From Nitrospirota bacterium (GTDB lineage Bacteria > Nitrospirota > Nitrospiria > Nitrospirales > Nitrospiraceae), in NCBI GenBank assembly GCA_030645475.1, contig JAUSMA010000065.1:62001-126000 (forward strand): a DNA stretch of 64,000 nt. Direction: 5' to 3'. Position 1 is the first letter of the stretch, and every line of letters starts with the position of its first letter. The position numbers and the translations under genes are program-made. The notes beneath the pieces were generated by a model. That model made no database searches. It saw only the letters and a program-made list of their open reading frames with translations, and was not told where the DNA came from. Below are positions 3,751 through 62,746 of the stretch, piece by piece.

Positions 3751-5814
3751 ATGCCACCCAATGAACGTGTCGGGATCAATGTCCAGGCGACGTTTCGCGC
3801 GGATACCTCACAGGCGAAACAAGCCTTCGATGAGTTCACGCGATCCAGCACCCAAGCGGCCCAACGCATGCAAGGGTCGGTGGGAGACCGTGATTCCGCC
3901 AGCTCGCGCGCCAAGCAACTGCTCAAAGAACAGTTGGGCGACAACTTCTCATTTATCCGCCAGCAAAAAGAAGTCAACTCCATCCTCCATGAGCAACGCC
4001 AGCACTATCGCGAGCTGAGCGACAATCTCTATCGCCAGGAACGGGCGGTCAAGAACCTGGGCGGCGAAGAAGAAAAAGCCGCCATGAAGCGTGTGCGTCG
4101 GATGCGGGACGAGAAGCGCGAAATGGCTGGCTTGGTCCATGCGCTGGAATCGCACAAGGCGGTTGGCATGGCGGCTGAGGGTGGATCCGGTCGAGCAGGC
4201 ATGCTCTCTGGTCTGTCGATGTCAGGGGCCATGAACGGAGGCGTCGTGGGTTCTGCGCTGGGACGGCTCGGGGCTCTCGCCATGTCGAACCCGATATCGG
4301 CATCCGTCATTGCGACTCTTGGAGGCCTTCATTTCCTCGACAAGTTCACTTCTGGCGAATCCAAATATAGTGAAGACATCGACGTGAGTATGGCCAATGT
4401 GGGACGGAGGACCGGAGGCGGGCTCAATCTCCGAAGCATGTTCGAACAGAACCCTGGTCGGATCTCGGACACCTTCAAGAACATGGGCTACACCGGCGAA
4501 CACCTTGCGGGCATGATGCAGGCCTATTCCATGCCGGGTGGCGCGTCGGCGATGGAGTCTCAGGGGCGCTTTGCTCGCAAGTTTGGGTTTGGTGAATCGC
4601 CCGAGATGATCTCGGGCCTCGGACGGCGCGCCACGCAATTAGGAACCGCTGAGCCGGCCCAGCAAGGGCAGTTCTGGGCCCTGATGACGGTCGCTGTCGA
4701 GAAGGGGCTCAAGAACGGGGTCGACGCCAGCGAAACCATGCGCAGCCTGTTGGGCATGACCGAACAGGTCGCCGCCCATACGGGCGTGGTCTCACAGAGC
4801 TATGTCGCGGGTCTCGCTGGGATGCAATCCTCACTCTCGTCCGGGGACAGTCGGTTCTTCAAGGGGGAGATGGGCGCGCACCATATCGGCAAGGTGCTGC
4901 AGGGGTTTCAAAATCCGCAATCCATTGCACAAGAGCGGTTCGTGATGAACTCGATTCGGGAGCACTTTGGCGGCACACCAACCGCTGGTCAGTTGAAACT
5001 GTCTGGCGGGGATGCCGAGGCCTACGGGCAGATGCCAGAGGTGCAGCAGCTCCAGTATGTCATGCAGAAATTGCCGGAGCTGATGAAGTCGAATCCTGGC
5101 CTGATGGCGAGCTTGGTCCGGAGCATGGCCAGCGGGGCAGGACCGGGCATGCAAAGCATGATGGCGGGAGCGGCCTTCAATATGTCAGCCGGAGAAGTCG
5201 CCGCCATGCACTCGTCGCTCTACGGCTCGCTGAAAGGCGGAGGGATGAGCGAGAAGCGGCTCCATGGTATGGGCGCGTTGGATCTCCTGGGTGAAGTCAT
5301 CGGTCGGTCCCCAGGCGAGGCCCAACAGATCCTGAGAGGAGACAGTGCAGGCAGTCCGCTGACTGATGCGGAGCGCGCGCGGACACTCGATAAGATGAAC
5401 CTGGAGACATGGTCGTCGTCGTTTAGCCGTGGGTCGATGGGGCTCCGCTTGGGCGTGAAAGGGGCCAAGTCTGGCATCGCGGAATCGTTCGAGCATGCCG
5501 CGAAGGATGCCTTCGGCACCCCCAGTGAAGAGGTGCAGCAACAGAATCGTATCCGTGAGATGGAACGGGAAATGATGTACGGCAACGGTGGCAGCGTCTA
5601 CAAGCAATCGTATGGCGGTGGGGAAAGCATGAACGTGAATCCAGTCGAGGTGACGGGCTCAATCCAATTGATCGGCGCGGACGGGGTGAGTCTGGGGCAG
5701 GTTCCGGCCGCAGCGATTGGGCTCCTCATCCAGAAGGCCATTCAAGACCAAAGTGGCACGCCGCGGGCAGGATCTCCGAGACGACCGCGACTGCTCGCGC
5801 AGCAGGTCACGTAA
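3751..5814 (+). CDS. Tail tape measure protein
   Basis: At 687 residues this is the longest protein of the tail module and sits just after the chaperone genes, as tape measure proteins do. Residues 1-135 are strongly helical and charged (RADTSQAKQAFDEFTRSSTQ, EVNSILHEQRQHYRELSDNL, EEEKAAMKRVRRMRDEKREM). Residues about 145-200 are Gly/Ser/Ala-rich and hydrophobic (SGAMNGGVVGSALGRLGALA), fitting the membrane-active part of such proteins. The rest is rich in Met, Gly and helices. The tape measure sets tail length; if the usual 1.5 angstrom per residue holds, the tail is about 100 nm long. The gene ends in an ATGG overlap with the next gene. Confidence 0.85.
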   Translation: MPPNERVGINVQATFRADTSQAKQAFDEFTRSSTQAAQRMQGSVGDRDSASSRAKQLLKEQLGDNFSFIRQQKEVNSILHEQRQHYRELSDNLYRQERAVKNLGGEEEKAAMKRVRRMRDEKREMAGLVHALESHKAVGMAAEGGSGRAGMLSGLSMSGAMNGGVVGSALGRLGALAMSNPISASVIATLGGLHFLDKFTSGESKYSEDIDVSMANVGRRTGGGLNLRSMFEQNPGRISDTFKNMGYTGEHLAGMMQAYSMPGGASAMESQGRFARKFGFGESPEMISGLGRRATQLGTAEPAQQGQFWALMTVAVEKGLKNGVDASETMRSLLGMTEQVAAHTGVVSQSYVAGLAGMQSSLSSGDSRFFKGEMGAHHIGKVLQGFQNPQSIAQERFVMNSIREHFGGTPTAGQLKLSGGDAEAYGQMPEVQQLQYVMQKLPELMKSNPGLMASLVRSMASGAGPGMQSMMAGAAFNMSAGEVAAMHSSLYGSLKGGGMSEKRLHGMGALDLLGEVIGRSPGEAQQILRGDSAGSPLTDAERARTLDKMNLETWSSSFSRGSMGLRLGVKGAKSGIAESFEHAAKDAFGTPSEEVQQQNRIREMEREMMYGNGGSVYKQSYGGGESMNVNPVEVTGSIQLIGADGVSLGQVPAAAIGLLIQKAIQDQSGTPRAGSPRRPRLLAQQVT

Positions 5815-53898: not shown

Positions 53899-54705
53899 AT
53901 GACACAACGAAATCTGTATATGCCCTTCGTGCTGCTGACCGGTATCCTCGTCGGGCCCTGTCCCGCGAGTGCGGCCTCTGCCGATCGTGCTCCCGTGGCA
54001 GTGCGGGTGGCGCAAGGGCCTGAACTCCGCGCGATCAAGCTGGTTCCTGCTCTCGTCCCGGCGATGCACCAGCTGCATCCCCACGATATTCAGCGAAGCA
54101 TTCTGCGTTTCCTCGAACAGGAGATGGCGGGACAGGTGCGTGCGGTCCATGCCACGATGGTGGACCCGCAGGAATCGATCGATGTGCCGCCCGGCAGCAT
54201 GGGCCTGATGATTACTCCGCATGGATTGGACGAAGGCCTCGGGCGCCGAACCTTTCATGTCCAGATCAATGCGAACGGTCGGCCTTGGCAGACTATCGAT
54301 GCCACGGCCGACATCGGCGCCTCCGTCGATGCCGTCGTACCGGTCAGAGTGATCAAGGCCGAGGATCTGATCGAAGCGGAAGACCTCACGATCCAGCGCA
54401 TCAAACTGCGGGAGTTGAACCATCAGTTGGCGACCAACATCAATGATGTTATCGGGAAGAGCGCAGCACGCGCGCTGCAGGCCAACATGCCGATTCGCCT
54501 CACGATGATTAAGAAACCCTATGCCGTTCACAAAGGGGATCGTGTGGCGATCGAGGCCAAACATGGGGGGCTCTCGATTCAAGCGTCCGGCGTGACGAAA
54601 TCGAGTGGAGAGCTCGGCCAATCCATTACGGTTGCGAACCTCGATTCAGGCAAAGAGTTGCGCGCAAAGATCGTGGCACCGGGAGTCGTACGCGTTGAGT
54701 ACTAA
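53899..54705 (+). CDS. flgA: Flagellar P-ring assembly chaperone FlgA
   Basis: A 268-residue periplasmic protein with a signal peptide (MTQRNLYMPFVLLTGILVG, ending near SAASA). The C-terminal SAF-like domain includes RVIKAEDLIEAEDLTIQRIK and ANMPIRLTMIKKPYAVHKGD. FlgA helps FlgI form the P ring around the rod. Start follows AAAGGAGTG. Its stop overlaps the flgH start. Confidence 0.93.
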   Translation: MTQRNLYMPFVLLTGILVGPCPASAASADRAPVAVRVAQGPELRAIKLVPALVPAMHQLHPHDIQRSILRFLEQEMAGQVRAVHATMVDPQESIDVPPGSMGLMITPHGLDEGLGRRTFHVQINANGRPWQTIDATADIGASVDAVVPVRVIKAEDLIEAEDLTIQRIKLRELNHQLATNINDVIGKSAARALQANMPIRLTMIKKPYAVHKGDRVAIEAKHGGLSIQASGVTKSSGELGQSITVANLDSGKELRAKIVAPGVVRVEY

Positions 54706-55402
54706 TCGCTGTCATACGTCGATCCGGCTGATGCTCGCGCTGAGCGTTGCGCTCGTCAACGTCGGGTGCTACTGGCACAATTCTCCCAACGTCGCCAAGA
54801 AACTGACGGTGCCTGCATTGCCTCCGCCCAAAACCGTCGGCTCGCTCTGGCAGGAGGAGAATGGGCGCGCGTACCTGTACGAAGACCTGCGGGCCATGAG
54901 GGTTGGCGATATTCTGACAATCAAGATTGTGGAAAAACATGCGGGGTCCAAGTCGGCCGACACGAAGGCGGAACGGGAATCGACCTTGAATAATTCGTTA
55001 AGCGGGACCGGTATCGGTTACATCGGTATCCCCGGAGTCCGGCTCGGCGCTGAGACGATGCGGGGACTGGGGGTCGATGCCAGCGCCAAGAGCAAGTTCG
55101 GAGGGAAGGGTGCGACCAGCCGTGCCGATACCTTGACCGGGACGATTTCCACGATTGTGACCGAGGTCCTGCCGAACGGGGATCTCCGCATCGAAGGCAA
55201 GCGGGAAGTGACCGTCAACAGCGAGACGCAGCTGATGTCGATCAGCGGCATCGTCCGGCGCGTGGACGTCGATACGAAGAACACGGTTCTGTCGAGTGCC
55301 ATTGCCGACGCGAAGATCGAATATTCCGGCTTAGGTGTCGTGGACGACGTGCAGCGGCCCGGCTGGCTGGTTCGGGTGCTTGATTGGGTCTATCCATTCT
55401 GA
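54695..55402 (+). CDS. flgH: Flagellar L-ring protein FlgH
   Basis: From the TTG at 54695, which overlaps the end of flgA with GGGAG upstream, this is 235 residues, close to the usual FlgH length. A lipoprotein signal (RLMLALSVALVNVGC) precedes Cys24 or so. The C-terminal part has SGIVRRVDVDTKNTVLSSAI and ends QRPGWLVRVLDWVYPF, the FlgH ending. FlgH forms the outer membrane L ring. An ATG at 54731 is another possible start. The -3 residue of the lipobox is Asn, which is unusual. Confidence 0.92.
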   Translation: MSTNRCHTSIRLMLALSVALVNVGCYWHNSPNVAKKLTVPALPPPKTVGSLWQEENGRAYLYEDLRAMRVGDILTIKIVEKHAGSKSADTKAERESTLNNSLSGTGIGYIGIPGVRLGAETMRGLGVDASAKSKFGGKGATSRADTLTGTISTIVTEVLPNGDLRIEGKREVTVNSETQLMSISGIVRRVDVDTKNTVLSSAIADAKIEYSGLGVVDDVQRPGWLVRVLDWVYPF

Positions 55403-55420
55403 GTCACGGAGGTGAGGATC

Positions 55421-55684
55421 ATGGGACGCACCGTAAGGCGGACGGCGGGCATTTCTTGGGAACAGCGGCATCGCCAGGCCGTGACGGACTATCTCAAGAT
55501 GATGGTCCTCAGCGGGGTCGTTCGCCGGGCCGATCTCGACCCTCCGGTGCTTCATCAGCATTCGGCGAAGATCGGCATCGATCCCTATGGAGGGGCGCTG
55601 GACCTCGATAACGAAATCGAGGAACCAGGCTGGTTGGCGAGAATATTTTTGAGCCGGGAGTACCTGTTGCGTCGGTACCATTGA
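55421..55684 (+). CDS. Small FlgH C-terminus-like protein
   Basis: An 87-residue protein from ATG 55421 after GGAGGTGA (GTG 55412 would add three). The middle and end resemble the FlgH tail: MVLSGVVRRADLD against MSISGIVRRVDVD in FlgH, and EEPGWLARIF against QRPGWLVRVL. There is no signal peptide and the N-terminus (GRTVRRTAGISWEQRHRQ) is basic. It lies between flgH and flgI, both outer ring genes. It may be a partial FlgH duplicate that has gained a new use, or a decaying copy. The similarity was seen by eye. Confidence 0.6.
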   Translation: MGRTVRRTAGISWEQRHRQAVTDYLKMMVLSGVVRRADLDPPVLHQHSAKIGIDPYGGALDLDNEIEEPGWLARIFLSREYLLRRYH

Positions 55685-55704: not shown

Positions 55705-56844
55705 ATGACCATGATGATGACGAAACGCTCTATCGGTGCCTCATTGCTCGCTGCGCTGCTTGTCGCGACGCCGGCTTGGGCCGTCAGGATTAAAGACGTC
55801 GGCTCGTTTGAAGGTGTCCGTGAAAACCAGTTGATCGGCTACGGGCTCGTGGTCGGACTGGATCGTACCGGCGATCAGGTCATCGGCGGTCAGTTCACGA
55901 TCCAGGCCATGATGTCGATGTTGAATAAGATGGGTGTGAACCTCGTGATCGATCCGATCCAATTACTGACGCGCAACATCGCGTCGGTCATGGTGACGGC
56001 CAAGCTGCCGCCCTTTGCCAAGCCGGGCTTGACGATCGACGTGCTGGTGTCCTCGATGGCCAATGCGAAGAGTCTGCAAGGCGGCACGCTGTTGCTCACG
56101 CCGTTGAAAGCGGCGAACCAGCAAGTCTATGCCGTGGCGCAAGGGGCGGTGTCGATCGGAGGGTTTTTGGGAGGGACGGGCGGCGGCGGCGGTTCGACCG
56201 TGACCAAGAATCATCAATCTGCCGGGGTGGTGCCCGGTGGAGCCATCATCGAAAAGGAAGCGGTGGTCGACGTGGAATCGTGGGAAACCGTGTCGGTGCT
56301 CCTGCGTCAGCCTGATTTTACGACAGCGATAAGGACGACCGAGGCCATCGACGGCGTCTTCGGCAAGGGGAGTGCGACCGCCGTCAATGCCGGCCTGGTC
56401 CGGGCGACTATCCCGGCGAATTTTCGAGGCCGAGTCGTGGAGTATATCGCCACAATCGAAGGGTTGGACGTGGCGGTCGATTTGTCGGCCAGAGTGGTGG
56501 TGAACGAACGAACCGGCACGGTGGTTCTCGGCGAGCATGTGCGGATCTCCACCTGTGCCATCTCGCATGGCAATCTCACGATCTCAGTGAAGAATACGCT
56601 CAATGTGTCGCAGCCTCCCGCTCCGTTGATTGGGTCCACGACTGGTCAGACGACTGTGACCCCCGATGTTCAGACGGAAGTGAAGGAACAGGAGTCTCGG
56701 TTGGTGGTGGTTGATGAGACGGTGACACTCGGGGAGGTCGTGCGGGCGTTGAACGCAGTCGGAGTGACTCCCAGGGACCTGGTAGCCATTTTGTCGGCAC
56801 TTCGTTCGGCAGGAGCTCTTCAGGCTAACCTTGATATAATTTAG
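55705..56844 (+). CDS. flgI: Flagellar P-ring protein FlgI
   Basis: A protein of about 379 residues from the ATG at 55705 (others at 55711-55717). The signal peptide is MMTKRSIGASLLAALLVATP, cleaved near AWA. The mature protein has FlgI's RENQLIGYGLVVGLDRTGDQ near the start and ends VVRALNAVGVTPRDLVAILS with a QANLDII tail. It forms the P ring in the periplasm. It lies after flgH and the small FlgH-like gene. Confidence 0.93.
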   Translation: MTMMMTKRSIGASLLAALLVATPAWAVRIKDVGSFEGVRENQLIGYGLVVGLDRTGDQVIGGQFTIQAMMSMLNKMGVNLVIDPIQLLTRNIASVMVTAKLPPFAKPGLTIDVLVSSMANAKSLQGGTLLLTPLKAANQQVYAVAQGAVSIGGFLGGTGGGGGSTVTKNHQSAGVVPGGAIIEKEAVVDVESWETVSVLLRQPDFTTAIRTTEAIDGVFGKGSATAVNAGLVRATIPANFRGRVVEYIATIEGLDVAVDLSARVVVNERTGTVVLGEHVRISTCAISHGNLTISVKNTLNVSQPPAPLIGSTTGQTTVTPDVQTEVKEQESRLVVVDETVTLGEVVRALNAVGVTPRDLVAILSALRSAGALQANLDII

Positions 56845-58244: not shown

Positions 58245-60269
58245 ATGGGACTCGATGGACTGCTCGATATCGGGAAGAGCGCACTCAGCGTCGCGCAACA
58301 GGCGCTCACGGTCACCGGTCACAACGTCGCCAACGTCAACACCCCCGGCTATTCCCGCCAGATGGCGGTGGTCACTGAACGGTCTCCGATCAATGGAGGG
58401 CCCGGCCAGGTCGGGACCGGTGTCCAGGTCGTCGAGATTCGGCGTATCGTCGATAAATTTATCAACGCGGAGTTGACGGACTCGCATGAACTGCTGGGAG
58501 AGTTATCCATCACGCGGGACCAGTTATTCCAAATTCAGAATATTTTTACCGATTCCAACAATCAGGGGATCGGTGCCCAGTTGAACGAGTTTTTCAGCAG
58601 TCTCCAGGATGTCGCGGCAAGCCCCTCCGATGTCACTCCGCGTTCAGTGCTGCTGGCGAAATCGGCCCTGCTCACCAATAGCATCAATCAGGCGGCCGGT
58701 GAGCTGTCCGCTCGCCGTACCTCGGTGAACGATCAAGTGAAGCAGACGATCTCGGAAATCAACAGTTTGACGACACGGATTGCCGATCTGAACAATAAAA
58801 TCGTGTCGGCCGAAATTACGGGGCAGAATGCCAACGATGTGCGGGACCAGCGGGATCAGGCGGTCAACGAGCTGGCTCAGCGCATCGATATCTCGGTGCT
58901 CGACGGGGCGAACGGCGCTGTGTCGGTCTTTGTCGGGCGCGGCCAGGTGGTCGTCGAAAGCAACGTGTCGCGCAATTTGGTCGCCGTGGAATCGCTCGAC
59001 AATGGGGGCCTGGTCAACGTCCAATACGATACGGGGAGTACCAGATCTGCAGATATTACCTCGTCTATTTCTGGCGGACGGATCGGGGGACTGCTGGCGA
59101 TCCGTGACACGATCATTCCGGGGCTGCAATCGTCCTTCGACAAACTCTCGGCTGGTTTGGTGAACGAGGTCAATCAACTTCATCGCCAGGGCTATGGGCT
59201 CGATGGGTCTACGGGACTCGATTTTTTTTCGCCTCTCACCGTGACGACACATGAGCAGTCTACGAATGAAGGCACGGCCATTCTCACGGCCGGACCGATT
59301 ACCGCCAACAGCCTCCTGACCCTGCAGGATTATGAAATCAGATTTTCGTCCTCGACGGCCTACTCCATCGTCAATGCGACGACCGGGGCGACCATCAAGG
59401 GGAATTTTACAGGGATTGCGGTGACGGCGCCGACGGTGGATGTGCCGGTCAATATTGTGACCGGAACGAACGATACCTTGACGGTTAGCGTCGATGGCAC
59501 CACATCCGGAACGATCACGCTGGCTGGCGCTGCCACGCCCGGACAAGCCTATACCAGTGGCGCCGCGCTGGCGACCGAGTTGCAAACGAAGATTAATGCC
59601 GATGCGACCCTGCAGGCGGCAGGACGTAGCGTAGTGGTGACGTACGATACGACGGCGAACCGATTCACGATTACGTCGAACGCCACGACTGCGACTTCGG
59701 CCGTCAACGTGACCGGAGGGACTGCGCGTACGGCCCTGGGTTTGCTCAGTGGAACCAGCACCGCCGCGTCAGGAGTCTATACCGATCCTCAAACATTTAC
59801 GCTCGATGGAATACAGATCGTCTTGAGCGGGACCGTCGTGGCCGGGGACGAGTTCTCGGTCAATTCTTATACCGGTATGGCCACGTCGATCAGCACGTCG
59901 CTGACGAATGGCAGCAGGGTGGCTGCCTCCTCGACGCGTGCCGGTGTTCCCGGCAATAACACCAACGCGATTGCGCTGGTCGCCCTGCAGACGAAATCCA
60001 TTGCTGTGATCGGCAACACCACGTTCGGCGATGCCTATCGTGTCGCGGCCACGAGTGTGGGCGTGGCGGCGCAGTCTGCAGATACCAGCCTCGATGCGCA
60101 AACGATCTTGCACGAGCAATTAGAGTCGTTCAGGGCCCAGTCGTCCGGCGTGTCGATCGACGAAGAACTGGTCGATATGCTCAAGTATCAACGGCTCTTC
60201 GATGCAGCATCTCGGTTGATCATCATCACGAATGAAATGTTGCAAACGCTGCTGGACTTGAAACGCTAA
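58245..60269 (+). CDS. flgK: Hook-filament junction protein FlgK (HAP1)
   Basis: A 674-residue protein starting LLDIGKSALSVAQQALTVTG with HNVANVNTPGYSRQMAVV after it, and ending VDMLKYQRLFDAASRLIIIT, NEMLQTLLDLKR, the normal ends of FlgK. Residues about 392-505 (nucleotides 59419-59763) are an inserted module with pattern LTVSVDGTTSGTITLAG, then GAALATELQTKIN, which occurs again in FlgL. A run of eight T (59222-59229) lies in the codons for DFFS. FlgK joins hook and filament. Confidence 0.92.
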   Translation: MGLDGLLDIGKSALSVAQQALTVTGHNVANVNTPGYSRQMAVVTERSPINGGPGQVGTGVQVVEIRRIVDKFINAELTDSHELLGELSITRDQLFQIQNIFTDSNNQGIGAQLNEFFSSLQDVAASPSDVTPRSVLLAKSALLTNSINQAAGELSARRTSVNDQVKQTISEINSLTTRIADLNNKIVSAEITGQNANDVRDQRDQAVNELAQRIDISVLDGANGAVSVFVGRGQVVVESNVSRNLVAVESLDNGGLVNVQYDTGSTRSADITSSISGGRIGGLLAIRDTIIPGLQSSFDKLSAGLVNEVNQLHRQGYGLDGSTGLDFFSPLTVTTHEQSTNEGTAILTAGPITANSLLTLQDYEIRFSSSTAYSIVNATTGATIKGNFTGIAVTAPTVDVPVNIVTGTNDTLTVSVDGTTSGTITLAGAATPGQAYTSGAALATELQTKINADATLQAAGRSVVVTYDTTANRFTITSNATTATSAVNVTGGTARTALGLLSGTSTAASGVYTDPQTFTLDGIQIVLSGTVVAGDEFSVNSYTGMATSISTSLTNGSRVAASSTRAGVPGNNTNAIALVALQTKSIAVIGNTTFGDAYRVAATSVGVAAQSADTSLDAQTILHEQLESFRAQSSGVSIDEELVDMLKYQRLFDAASRLIIITNEMLQTLLDLKR

Positions 60270-60286: not shown

Positions 60287-62746
60287 ATGAGAGTTACCGA
60301 ACAACAGGCCTATGGCACATTGGTCAGTAATATTCAGCGGGCCCGCGCCAAGGCCCTGGCCACGCAGGAGCAAATTTCGACCGGCAAGAAGGTAGTGAAA
60401 CCGTCGGATAATGCTAATGGGTTTGACCGCATCGTGGCGACCAAGTTTTCGATGGCGAAGGCGAACCAACATTTGCGCAACCTCGGCGTGGCTACGACTC
60501 GTCTCGACCTGACCGACAGCGCTTTGAGCAGCGTCACGAACGCCCTCGCCAGGGTCAAAGAACTTGCCGTGCAGTTCGCCAACAGCACCAACGGCGCTGC
60601 CGAACGAGCGATTGGCGCACGTGAAGTCAAGCAGTTGCTCCTTCAGCTTCAAGAACAGGGAAATGCCGAACATGCCGGGGGGCAATCGATTTTTGCCGGC
60701 ACCGGCCGCCATGGGCGTGCGACGGGTGTCGCCATTACCGCGCCCATCGCGCTGACCGGTGGGACCAACGATTCGCTGGTGGTGAACGTCGACGGGACCA
60801 CGTCTGGCACGATCGCGCTTGGAACCGCTTCCGTGACCGGTTCCGAATTGGCCGCACTCGTGCAACGCAAGGTCAACACCGATCCGACGCTTCTGGCGGC
60901 AGGGAAAAGTGTGACGGTGACGTTCGACACCAACCATCTCGTCCTCACCTCGTCCGATAACGGCCTGCCGTCCTCGGTCGAAGTCACCGGCGGTACCAGC
61001 CTGACGGCTCTCGGCTTTAACGGAGGCAGCACGACCAACGGCGCCTCCGCCTTTGCCCTCCGTGCGGCGACTGGAGTCGGCACGAGGAATACCGGAAGCG
61101 CCGTGATCTCACAAGGTACGGTATTCAACCCGAACGCTGCGACGCTCAACGATTACCTGGTGAAGTTCAGTTCAGCGACCACCTTCGATCTCTACAACGT
61201 CACCACGTCCGTGGGGGTATTGCCGAATACCACTAATACCGGAGGAGTGGTGAGGAGCGACAGCGGCGTGCTCGATTCGAGCCTGGTGACATTGGACAAT
61301 TATGAAGTTCGTGTGAAAAATATTTATACGGTGACGGCGGGGGTGAACGACGGGATTCGTTTCGATCCAGGATCCGGAGCGGTCACGGCAACATTGGCCG
61401 CCGGGTCCTATACCGGAGCCGAGTTGGCGACTCAGATCAAGACCGCTCTCGAGGCGGCGAGTGGGCCCGAAACCTACACGGTCGGTTTTGACGAGACGAC
61501 CGCCAAGTTCAGCATCACAAACGACGTGGCGAACGGGACGGCGCTGAGTTTGCTCTATTCGAACGCAGCGACGACGGCCGGATCGCTTCTCGGCTCATCG
61601 GGGCGCGATTTGAGCCCCATCGCGGCGGGAGCGACGGTCATCAGCGATGTGGACACGACCGGCCTGGCCGGGGTGTCCAAGCAACAGAACGTGTACAACA
61701 CGACCCTTGCGACCAACATCTTCAACATCACCTCGGCGAACAATACGCTGATCGTCAACGACGACGGAGGGACCACCGATACGACGATTACCCTGGCGAC
61801 CGGAAGTTATACAGGTGCGCAGCTGGCGACCGAACTGGCGTCTAAGCTGAACGCAAGCCGCAATGCCGCCAATACGACTCCTTATACCGTGGCGTACGGA
61901 TCTGTGACCGCCGGCCGGATTACGATCAACAATCCCGCAGGCAATGCCAATTCACTCATTCTGAGATTCGGTAATGCCGGCTCTACCGCGGCGCAGATTC
62001 TAGGCTCTGGGTCGGCGACTGTGACGGAGACCGTGGGGGCGTCGGCTTCCACGCTGAACAACGATGCCGGTTATACGAACTACCTCTCCGGTGCGAACAT
62101 CGACTTCGACGGCCTTCGGGTCGTCCTGCAGGATGGGACCGCGGGACCCCGGAATGGAGACGTATTCGCGGTTTCACAAACGCGGAGCGTCGTGCTCCCG
62201 AATCAGACCTATGTGTCCGGACGCACGATCGAGGCAGAGGGGGTGCGGTTTTCACTCAGGGACGGAGCGGCGGCTCCGGCAAGCGGCGATCGTTTCAGTA
62301 TCCAGACCGGAGTGCAGTACCAGGGCGACGACGGGCTGCAAACCATTGAAGTCGGCGATGGGCAAACGGTCAAGACGAACCAGCCTGGCAATCAGACCTT
62401 TAGCGGCCCCACGATCGACCTGTTCGCATCGGTGAAAAGTTTGAATGCCGCGTTGAACGGCAATTACGTCGGCGGCATTCAGCGAGGCTTAGCAGGTGTC
62501 GATGTGGCGTTGGATCAGGTGTCGTCCATTCAGGGCGAGCTGGGCGCGTTGTCCAATCGTCTCGCATCGAGCAAGGGCAGCCTCGATGAGACGAAGGTCT
62601 TTCTGGCGAACATTTTGTCCACCAATGAAGACGTGGATCTGGTGGAAGCGATTTCAAGCTTGACGCTCCAGCAGCAAGCCATTCAAGCTGCAGGGGCCAC
62701 GCTCAACCGTCTGTTCGAAAGCTCCCTGCTGAATTTCTTGAAATAA
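60287..62746 (+). CDS. flgL: Hook-filament junction protein FlgL (HAP3), expanded
   Basis: An 819-residue protein, against about 300-400 for most FlgL. The first 140 residues (RVTEQQAYGTLVSNIQRARA, STGKKVVKPSDNANGFDRIV, GRHGRATGV) and the last 120 (SLNAALNGNYVGGIQRGLAG, then LTLQQQAIQAAGATLNRLFE) are the normal FlgL ends. In between are at least three modules with the pattern VNVDGTTSGTIALG... GSYTGAELATQIKT (about residues 148-250, 345-440, 478-580), the first like the FlgK insert. Such modules in axial proteins may thicken or decorate the filament base. It follows flgK by 17 bases. Confidence 0.88.
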   Translation: MRVTEQQAYGTLVSNIQRARAKALATQEQISTGKKVVKPSDNANGFDRIVATKFSMAKANQHLRNLGVATTRLDLTDSALSSVTNALARVKELAVQFANSTNGAAERAIGAREVKQLLLQLQEQGNAEHAGGQSIFAGTGRHGRATGVAITAPIALTGGTNDSLVVNVDGTTSGTIALGTASVTGSELAALVQRKVNTDPTLLAAGKSVTVTFDTNHLVLTSSDNGLPSSVEVTGGTSLTALGFNGGSTTNGASAFALRAATGVGTRNTGSAVISQGTVFNPNAATLNDYLVKFSSATTFDLYNVTTSVGVLPNTTNTGGVVRSDSGVLDSSLVTLDNYEVRVKNIYTVTAGVNDGIRFDPGSGAVTATLAAGSYTGAELATQIKTALEAASGPETYTVGFDETTAKFSITNDVANGTALSLLYSNAATTAGSLLGSSGRDLSPIAAGATVISDVDTTGLAGVSKQQNVYNTTLATNIFNITSANNTLIVNDDGGTTDTTITLATGSYTGAQLATELASKLNASRNAANTTPYTVAYGSVTAGRITINNPAGNANSLILRFGNAGSTAAQILGSGSATVTETVGASASTLNNDAGYTNYLSGANIDFDGLRVVLQDGTAGPRNGDVFAVSQTRSVVLPNQTYVSGRTIEAEGVRFSLRDGAAAPASGDRFSIQTGVQYQGDDGLQTIEVGDGQTVKTNQPGNQTFSGPTIDLFASVKSLNAALNGNYVGGIQRGLAGVDVALDQVSSIQGELGALSNRLASSKGSLDETKVFLANILSTNEDVDLVEAISSLTLQQQAIQAAGATLNRLFESSLLNFLK

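Follow-up and report, generated by a model that had tools for sequence, protein, structure and literature searches.

The flagellar genes flgH and flgI, which encode the L-ring lipoprotein and the P-ring protein, are commonly regarded as a fixed pair. The window that we analyzed, a stretch of 64,000 nucleotides from a Nitrospirota bacterium of the family Nitrospiraceae, carries a conserved extra small gene, termed X1, between the two. Among described proteins, X1 compares with the C-terminal segment of FlgH (PF02107, PRK12696), in which the same two stretches, SG[IV]VRR.D.D (motif A) and PGWLxR (motif B), stand in identical order and at identical spacing, and whose gene is its direct neighbor. 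In contrast to FlgH, X1 has neither a hydrophobic segment nor a lipobox, falls below the Pfam cut-off, covers just positions 115-169 of the 172 in the FlgH profile, and is predicted, at low confidence, as two helices (mean pLDDT 59), the L-ring fold being beta-rich.

The FlgI precursor of genus g3 likewise carries an X1-like stretch, placed ahead of its signal peptide (22/22 genomes); there the stretch belongs to the FlgI frame, whereas X1 of the window has an ORF of its own. X2, which is encoded at a second locus, shares with X1 motif A, a basic N-terminus and two predicted helices, but lacks GWLxR and occurs also in genomes without FlgH; neither of two X2 sequences tested had a Pfam family. 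Arrest peptides of the RAPP type resemble X1 in that they, too, are small ORFs immediately preceding the gene of an exported protein. X1 differs from them in having no RAPP-like motif and in having a protected motif further downstream as well. Searches of the literature on Nitrospira flgH/flgI, on N-terminal extensions of FlgI and on small flagellar proteins of Nitrospira found nothing, and for the region between flgH and flgI only PMC8298488 (background) matched. Within the literature searched, a small gene between flgH and flgI is undescribed.

Results

X1 is a separate small ORF between flgH and flgI

X1 begins 18 nt beyond the flgH stop at 55402, and its TGA ends 20 nt ahead of the first in-frame flgI ATG (Table 1). 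The flgI gene of the window was named through its similarity to that of a relative (L055), on which the Pfam FlgI search was run.

Table 1. Coordinates of X1, its motifs and its neighboring genes in the window, and loci of genus g3 with an in-frame stretch.
Feature	Position (window) or loci	Strand	Remarks
flgH (L-ring lipoprotein), likely TTG start	54695..55402	+	Pfam FlgH E=5.9e-58; start and lipobox by eye
Likely ribosome binding site of X1 (cacggaggtgagg, with GGAGG)	55405..55417	+	sequence
X1	55421..55684	+	87 aa, ATG start, TGA stop, without signal peptide; conserved in relatives, purifying selection
Motif A of X1 (LKMMVLSGVVRRADLDPP)	55493..55546	+	matches FlgH LMSISGIVRRVDVD and X2; pN/pS 0.10
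Motif B of X1 (EPGWLARIF)	55622..55648	+	matches FlgH RPGWLVRVL; pN/pS 0.11
flgI (P-ring protein)	55705..56844	+	frame from first of several in-frame ATGs
g3 loci with in-frame stretch ahead of FlgI signal peptide	L055, L056, L066, L126-L138, L181-L186		

The mean hydropathy of X1 over 19-aa windows reached a maximum of 0.56, meaning that there is no hydrophobic segment, and a lipobox-like pattern was found in none of the 60 X1 sequences of relatives. The view of the sequence-only reading that the small protein lacks a signal peptide is thereby supported, as judged by hydropathy and a lipobox pattern search. The structure model of X1, a poor one (mean pLDDT 59.1), has helices at residues 13-31 and 71-85 and no strands. 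At motif B, moments of just 0.15-0.28 in five members gave no support to a membrane helix of strongly amphipathic character. No Pfam or NCBIfam family claimed X1 at its cut-off, a search of solved structures returned nothing relevant (best E=0.21), and a search of plasmids gave no match. Among 32 aligned X1 sequences, the residues after SGVVRRAD are an almost invariant PP pair.

X1 resembles the C-terminus of FlgH

Examination of the sequence by itself had suggested that the small ORF resembles the C-terminus of FlgH, and that two motifs recur in both proteins in the same order and at similar spacing. Both suggestions were upheld. In a single-pair BLASTP comparison, X1 and its own FlgH were identical at 22/65 positions (36.6 bits, E=1e-8), the FlgH segment concerned being its C-terminal 65 aa, and 0/2000 FlgH shuffles reached the real score (best shuffle 23.5 bits compared to 35.4 bits in the shuffle set-up). 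The motif A region reads MVLSGVVRRADLD in X1 and MSISGIVRRVDVD in FlgH, the motif B region EEPGWLAR and QRPGWLVR, respectively, and the distance from the S of SGVVR to the G of GWL, counted by hand, is 40 positions in each. When the own genome (3.75 Mb) was searched with the X1 sequence or with the X1 family profile A1, FlgH was the sole other match (E=1.8e-4 and E=1.1e-5, respectively); with a profile built without the window's clade, FlgH came second after X1 among the 714 ORFs of the window (E=2e-5). On X1 itself, Pfam FlgH (PF02107) stayed below threshold (E=0.085, 12.9 bits compared to a cut-off of 27), and NCBIfam PRK12696 was far under its cut-off (E=0.0029). The resemblance of X1 to FlgH is well above chance.

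We extracted 60 X1 with coordinates from the flgH-flgI junctions of relatives. Both motifs were present at a spacing of 38-42 in 54 of these (own FlgH, 40). Alignment to own FlgH was strongest in the window's clade (4 loci, 36.6-39.7 bits). For the other 50 X1 of genera g1 and g2, 44 scored 20.0-28.1 bits, at FlgH residues 144-158, and the remaining six scored lower, with two aligning elsewhere. Six X1 represent genera g3, g7, g11 and g14: three gave no alignment, one aligned elsewhere, and L056 and L068 scored 18-19 bits. Among the 12 loci put through the shuffle test, none of 2000 shuffles was as good in L001, L005, L006, L009, L018 and L045, while the number as good was 1 for L036, 4 for L008, 8 for L010, 37 for L068, 113 for L055 and 248 for L067.

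Profile-profile comparison of X1 sets with FlgH gave P values of 5.8e-8, 1.5e-8 and 1.3e-7 (the last without the window's clade), with 2.8e-9 for the window's clade alone and 0.003 for g3 alone. The X1 profile matched FlgH in 70/84 entries, the other 14 being truncated because they came from short loci; the FlgH profile matched just 4/60 X1, all of the window's clade. By motif, motif A of X1 scored up to 21.0 bits with FlgH and 13.2 with own FlgH, where 3000 shuffles reached 7.0 at best, and a motif A profile of the window's clade scored 13.9 bits against own FlgH, compared to 11.3 for the best shuffle. For motif B, the window's clade reached 12.1 bits against own FlgH (best of 3000 shuffles 8.3), and without that clade the FlgH match was no better than shuffles. 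L065 and early-branching members were omitted from some of these profiles.

X1 is conserved and under purifying selection

The objection that X1 might lack conservation in close relatives fails, since it is kept in relatives and evolves under constraint. When 395 genomes of the phylum were scanned, 84 had matches, or 101 with a broader profile, counts that include FlgH-only and second-site matches; about 80 rows of the broader-profile scan at E<=4.5e-10 were junction copies by hand count. When named loci were scanned with a short motif A pattern, X1 lay beside flgH and/or flgI in 54/54, with both flanking in 53 and flgI only in one, and the titles of all 54 name Nitrospira, Nitrospiraceae, Nitrospirae or Nitrospirota. 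The start of X1 lies 11-20 nt past the flgH stop in 48 of the 60 extracted sequences, starts having been picked by hand in 20 of the 60. In one genome (G195, locus L006), the flgH-X1 spacer is 261 nt long.

The dN/dS of X1 was below 1 in all 25 computable pairs (26 tried), ranging from 0.05 to 0.57. It exceeded that of FlgH in 25/25 pairs and that of FlgI in all but one of them (24); the one deviating pair includes L003, for which FlgI values are unreliable owing to a wrong start and a stop in the early FlgI frame. Pooled over 16 pairs, some of which have sequences in common, pN/pS stood at 0.10 for motif A and 0.11 for motif B, compared to values of 0.46 for the N-terminus, 0.49 for the linker and 0.32 for the tail. 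Because pN/pS was lowest in motifs A and B, these results indicate that selection acts mainly on the two FlgH-like stretches. X1 is thus a real gene, one that encodes a small protein within the flagellar operon of Nitrospira.

On a FlgH+FlgI tree of 48 loci, in which the L003 row is short, X1 carriers fall within one clade of 41. X1 is absent from five loci of the neighboring f2 family and from one locus each in genera g4 and g6. Inside the clade, the one g5 genome read (L178) lacks it; it is deleted in L062, L064 and L179, interrupted by a stop codon in L048, and shortened with loss of motif B in L065; in G222, FlgH sits at a contig edge and gives no X1 status. This distribution is most simply read as a single gain followed by several losses, with X1 having probably arisen once within the family. 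The repeated losses show X1 to be dispensable. Since the complete genome of N. moscoviensis NSP M-1 carries X1 as a separate ORF (L081), X1 is open to tests in a named strain.

X1 is in frame with FlgI in part of the family

No stop codon separates X1 from FlgI in 10/60 extracted X1. In genus g3 an X1-like stretch opens the FlgI frame in 22/22 sampled genomes (L139, of another family, is excluded from this count), and the 57 extracted X1 from outside g3 include 7 with the in-frame arrangement. The g3 stretch follows the rough pattern M..PRKQQRAMI.QCFRLM.SSGV.R...DP....W..P, from which L131 departs most, and then W[FL]RR, which immediately precedes the hydrophobic core of the FlgI signal peptide. 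In the long form of L055 the Pfam FlgI domain starts at residue 85, and one g3 genome (G094) has an early break in its FlgI frame, with 341 aa open. Two pairs gave dN/dS values of 0.11 and 0.26 for the g3 stretch.

Late start codons are available in g3 (ATG in most genomes, GTG in L056). Since their use would drop the arginines that precede the hydrophobic core, the sequences suggest that X1 is likely fused to FlgI in g3; an in-frame TTG before the signal peptide in the L008 group leaves a separate FlgI start possible there. On the FlgH+FlgI tree, the in-frame loci are found in g3, in L069, and in L040 together with L036-L008-L014, with the separate-form L045 among them. Because these positions are scattered, in-frame joining appears to have taken place in at least three events, and it may merely reflect tight packing. 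One genome (G394) has two flgH-X1-flgI junctions, X1 being separate in one and in frame with FlgI in the other (L020, L040); a mixed assembly is possible.

A related small protein, X2, is encoded at a second locus

An X1-only profile (A2) matched second-site ORFs at distant loci, down to E=8.5e-8. With a motif-A profile (A3), which includes X2 sequences from other genera, an X2-type locus was present in many genomes of the family, among the matches listed. In the own genome, A3 placed X2 at G000:C32:4758-4847 (L159, match at 4001-4090; E=5.7e-7), beside tRNA-Ser(GCU); the X1-only profile A1 did not reach this X2, even at E<=10. We read 36 second-site ORFs, leaving out the matches of G382 and the second matches of G149 and G153. 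A tRNA scan of 32 second-site loci identified tRNA-Ser(GCU) in 25 and tRNA-Phe in 17. By pattern search, 18/36 loci have, directly upstream of X2, an ORF of some 66 aa that is zinc-ribbon-like (CPFCGG...CSQC; for example L151 3738-3938), and none was found upstream of the own-genome X2; the one member tested had no Pfam family above cut-off. X2 is under purifying selection as well (0.10-0.76 in 10 pairs). Five genomes without a FlgH match, G077, G372, G165, G324 and G193 (99% completeness), were read and carry X2 with tRNA-Ser(GCU), indicating that X2 is not a flagellar protein.

The X2 profile, from which the g7 ORFs, L174 and L157 were left out, matched 55/60 X1 and 0/84 FlgH entries, of which 14 are truncated, and the X1 profile matched 20/36 second-site ORFs at E<=0.01 (Z=4000). 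In motif A, X1 and its best X2 scored 30.9 bits. The X2 structure model (mean pLDDT 64.7) has helices at residues 7-31 and 73-100; residues 11-30 reach block means of 90 and 88. In both models, that of X1 and that of X2 (pLDDT 59.1 and 64.7), one helix extends through the N-terminal part as far as motif A and a second lies at the C-terminus. With low confidence, this predicted common layout would support kinship of X1 and X2 and argue against a retained FlgH fold. To the idea that X1 might be assigned to a different family the answer is divided: X2 is nearer than FlgH in motif A, and no named family claims X1.

Two variants were seen besides. Genus g7 has a third kind of small motif-A ORF elsewhere, 67-70 aa long with a proline-rich tail (L143, L145, L146). 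In L174 (3887-5608), the X2 frame continues into a long ORF that appears transposase-like by eye, an apparent insertion behind X2.

Discussion

Descent of X1 from flgH is plausible, a grading that we do not raise because X2 fits motif A better and because X1 is predicted, at low confidence, as strandless helices. We give an even chance to an origin in a tandem duplication of the 3' end of flgH, whereby X1 would be a C-terminal FlgH fragment without signal peptide in a new role and X2 a later copy cut down to motif A; this concerns origin only and is compatible with our best explanation of what X1 is (below). The position of X1 next to flgH, the order and spacing of the two motifs, the profile-profile P values of four X1 sets (1.3e-7 to 2.8e-9), FlgH as the sole other own-genome match of X1 and profile A1, and the motif B score of the window's clade, which no shuffle reached, all argue for duplication. 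Against this stand the better fit of motif A to X2 (30.9 bits) than to any FlgH (21.0), the window clade's motif A score against own FlgH (13.9 bits) next to that of the best shuffle (11.3), the failure of the X2 profile to match any FlgH entry, the reach of the FlgH profile to the window's clade only, motif B at shuffle level without that clade, weak or absent pairwise likeness in g3, g7, g11 and g14 (g3 alone, P=0.003), and the prediction of helices without strands. A convergent origin, in which X1 is an X2-type small protein that landed between flgH and flgI and its likeness to FlgH reflects short common motifs, by chance or through mimicry of a FlgH surface, strikes us as possible and somewhat less probable than duplication. 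The occurrence of X2 in genomes without FlgH, the stronger X1-X2 match in motif A at best, and the slight likeness of other genera to FlgH fit convergence. It sits poorly with a window-clade match that covers both motifs, beats 2000/2000 shuffles and has flgH as its direct neighbor, and with a profile (A1) that reaches FlgH yet misses its own X2.

With regard to function, our best explanation as a whole, to which we assign somewhat less than an even chance, is that X1 is a small flagellar-operon gene kept by selection on two short motifs, that X1 and X2 form a small lineage-specific family of Nitrospiraceae with at least two loci, and that X1 has a role on the FlgI precursor. In the proposed architecture, a basic helix at the N-terminus ends in SGV[VI]R and is joined through a variable linker to a helical segment at the C-terminus, which in X1 carries GWLxR. 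The absence of a hydrophobic segment, the place at the start of FlgI and the frames that run ahead of the FlgI signal peptide suggest that X1 acts in the cytosol, where FlgI is made or exported. Staying in the cytosol, X1 may use motif A as a docking part for a cytosolic partner that X2 also uses, with motif B as the flagellar-specific part; it would then act on the nascent FlgI precursor, in trans or in cis as an N-terminal extension, and might time or guide FlgI synthesis or Sec export. A narrower proposal, that X1 is a cytosolic export pilot for FlgI that Nitrospira evolved from the tail of FlgH, that works in trans in the majority of species and is welded to the FlgI precursor in others, and that had its docking motif reused in a non-flagellar protein, appears unlikely to us. 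The surroundings of X2, with tRNA genes and, at half of the loci, the zinc-ribbon-like ORF, give no hint of protein export.

The readings of X1 as a regulatory leader, an RNA element or a remnant are weaker than a cytosolic role on FlgI. A leader, whose translation or stalling sets flgI translation and the FlgH:FlgI ratio, is improbable: the close packing of X1 immediately before flgI and the near-invariant PP would suit it, but the protected motif downstream of PP, the in-frame forms that would put the peptide into FlgI, and the mostly tRNA genes downstream of X2 would not. An arrest peptide in particular was rejected, with RAPP, RAPG, RAGP and RGPP absent from 60 X1 and 36 second-site ORFs. 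The mRNA stretch showed no folding advantage over shuffles (z -1.12), which counts against a leader and likewise against an RNA element; pooled synonymous change was 0.29-0.36 in every part of X1, and low synonymous change in some pairs was not upheld in others. That X1 is a functionless, decaying remnant is very improbable. The stop, the deletions, the loss of motif B and the absence from the g5 genome read, together with a fast-evolving N-terminus and linker and a dN/dS above that of FlgH in every pair, are what a remnant would leave, but dN/dS below 1 in 25/25 computable pairs and motif pN/pS of about 0.1 are not. We take the remnant reading as refuted for the lineage overall by the selection data, and true of single genomes.

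The sequence-only reading had proposed a partial duplication turned into a new component, or else a decaying copy of flgH. The likeness behind this proposal is real and the gene is kept. Decay is not its general state, given dN/dS below 1 in all 25 pairs and FlgH-like motifs that are the most protected, and a new ring component or secreted factor is not supported, because nothing indicates secretion and the in-frame X1 precedes the FlgI signal peptide.

A conserved gene inserted between flgH and flgI, in some relatives in frame before the FlgI signal peptide, would amount to a lineage-specific change in the making of the P ring. X1 further makes it possible to trace how a new small-protein family may have been seeded by the end of a structural gene.

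Elsewhere in the window, the ORFs at 58245-60269 (674 aa) and 60287-62746 (819 aa), which we take to be FlgK-like and FlgL-like, respectively, and which presumably are long for their kind, both contain a repeat-like stretch, NDxLxVxVDGTTSGTIxL.
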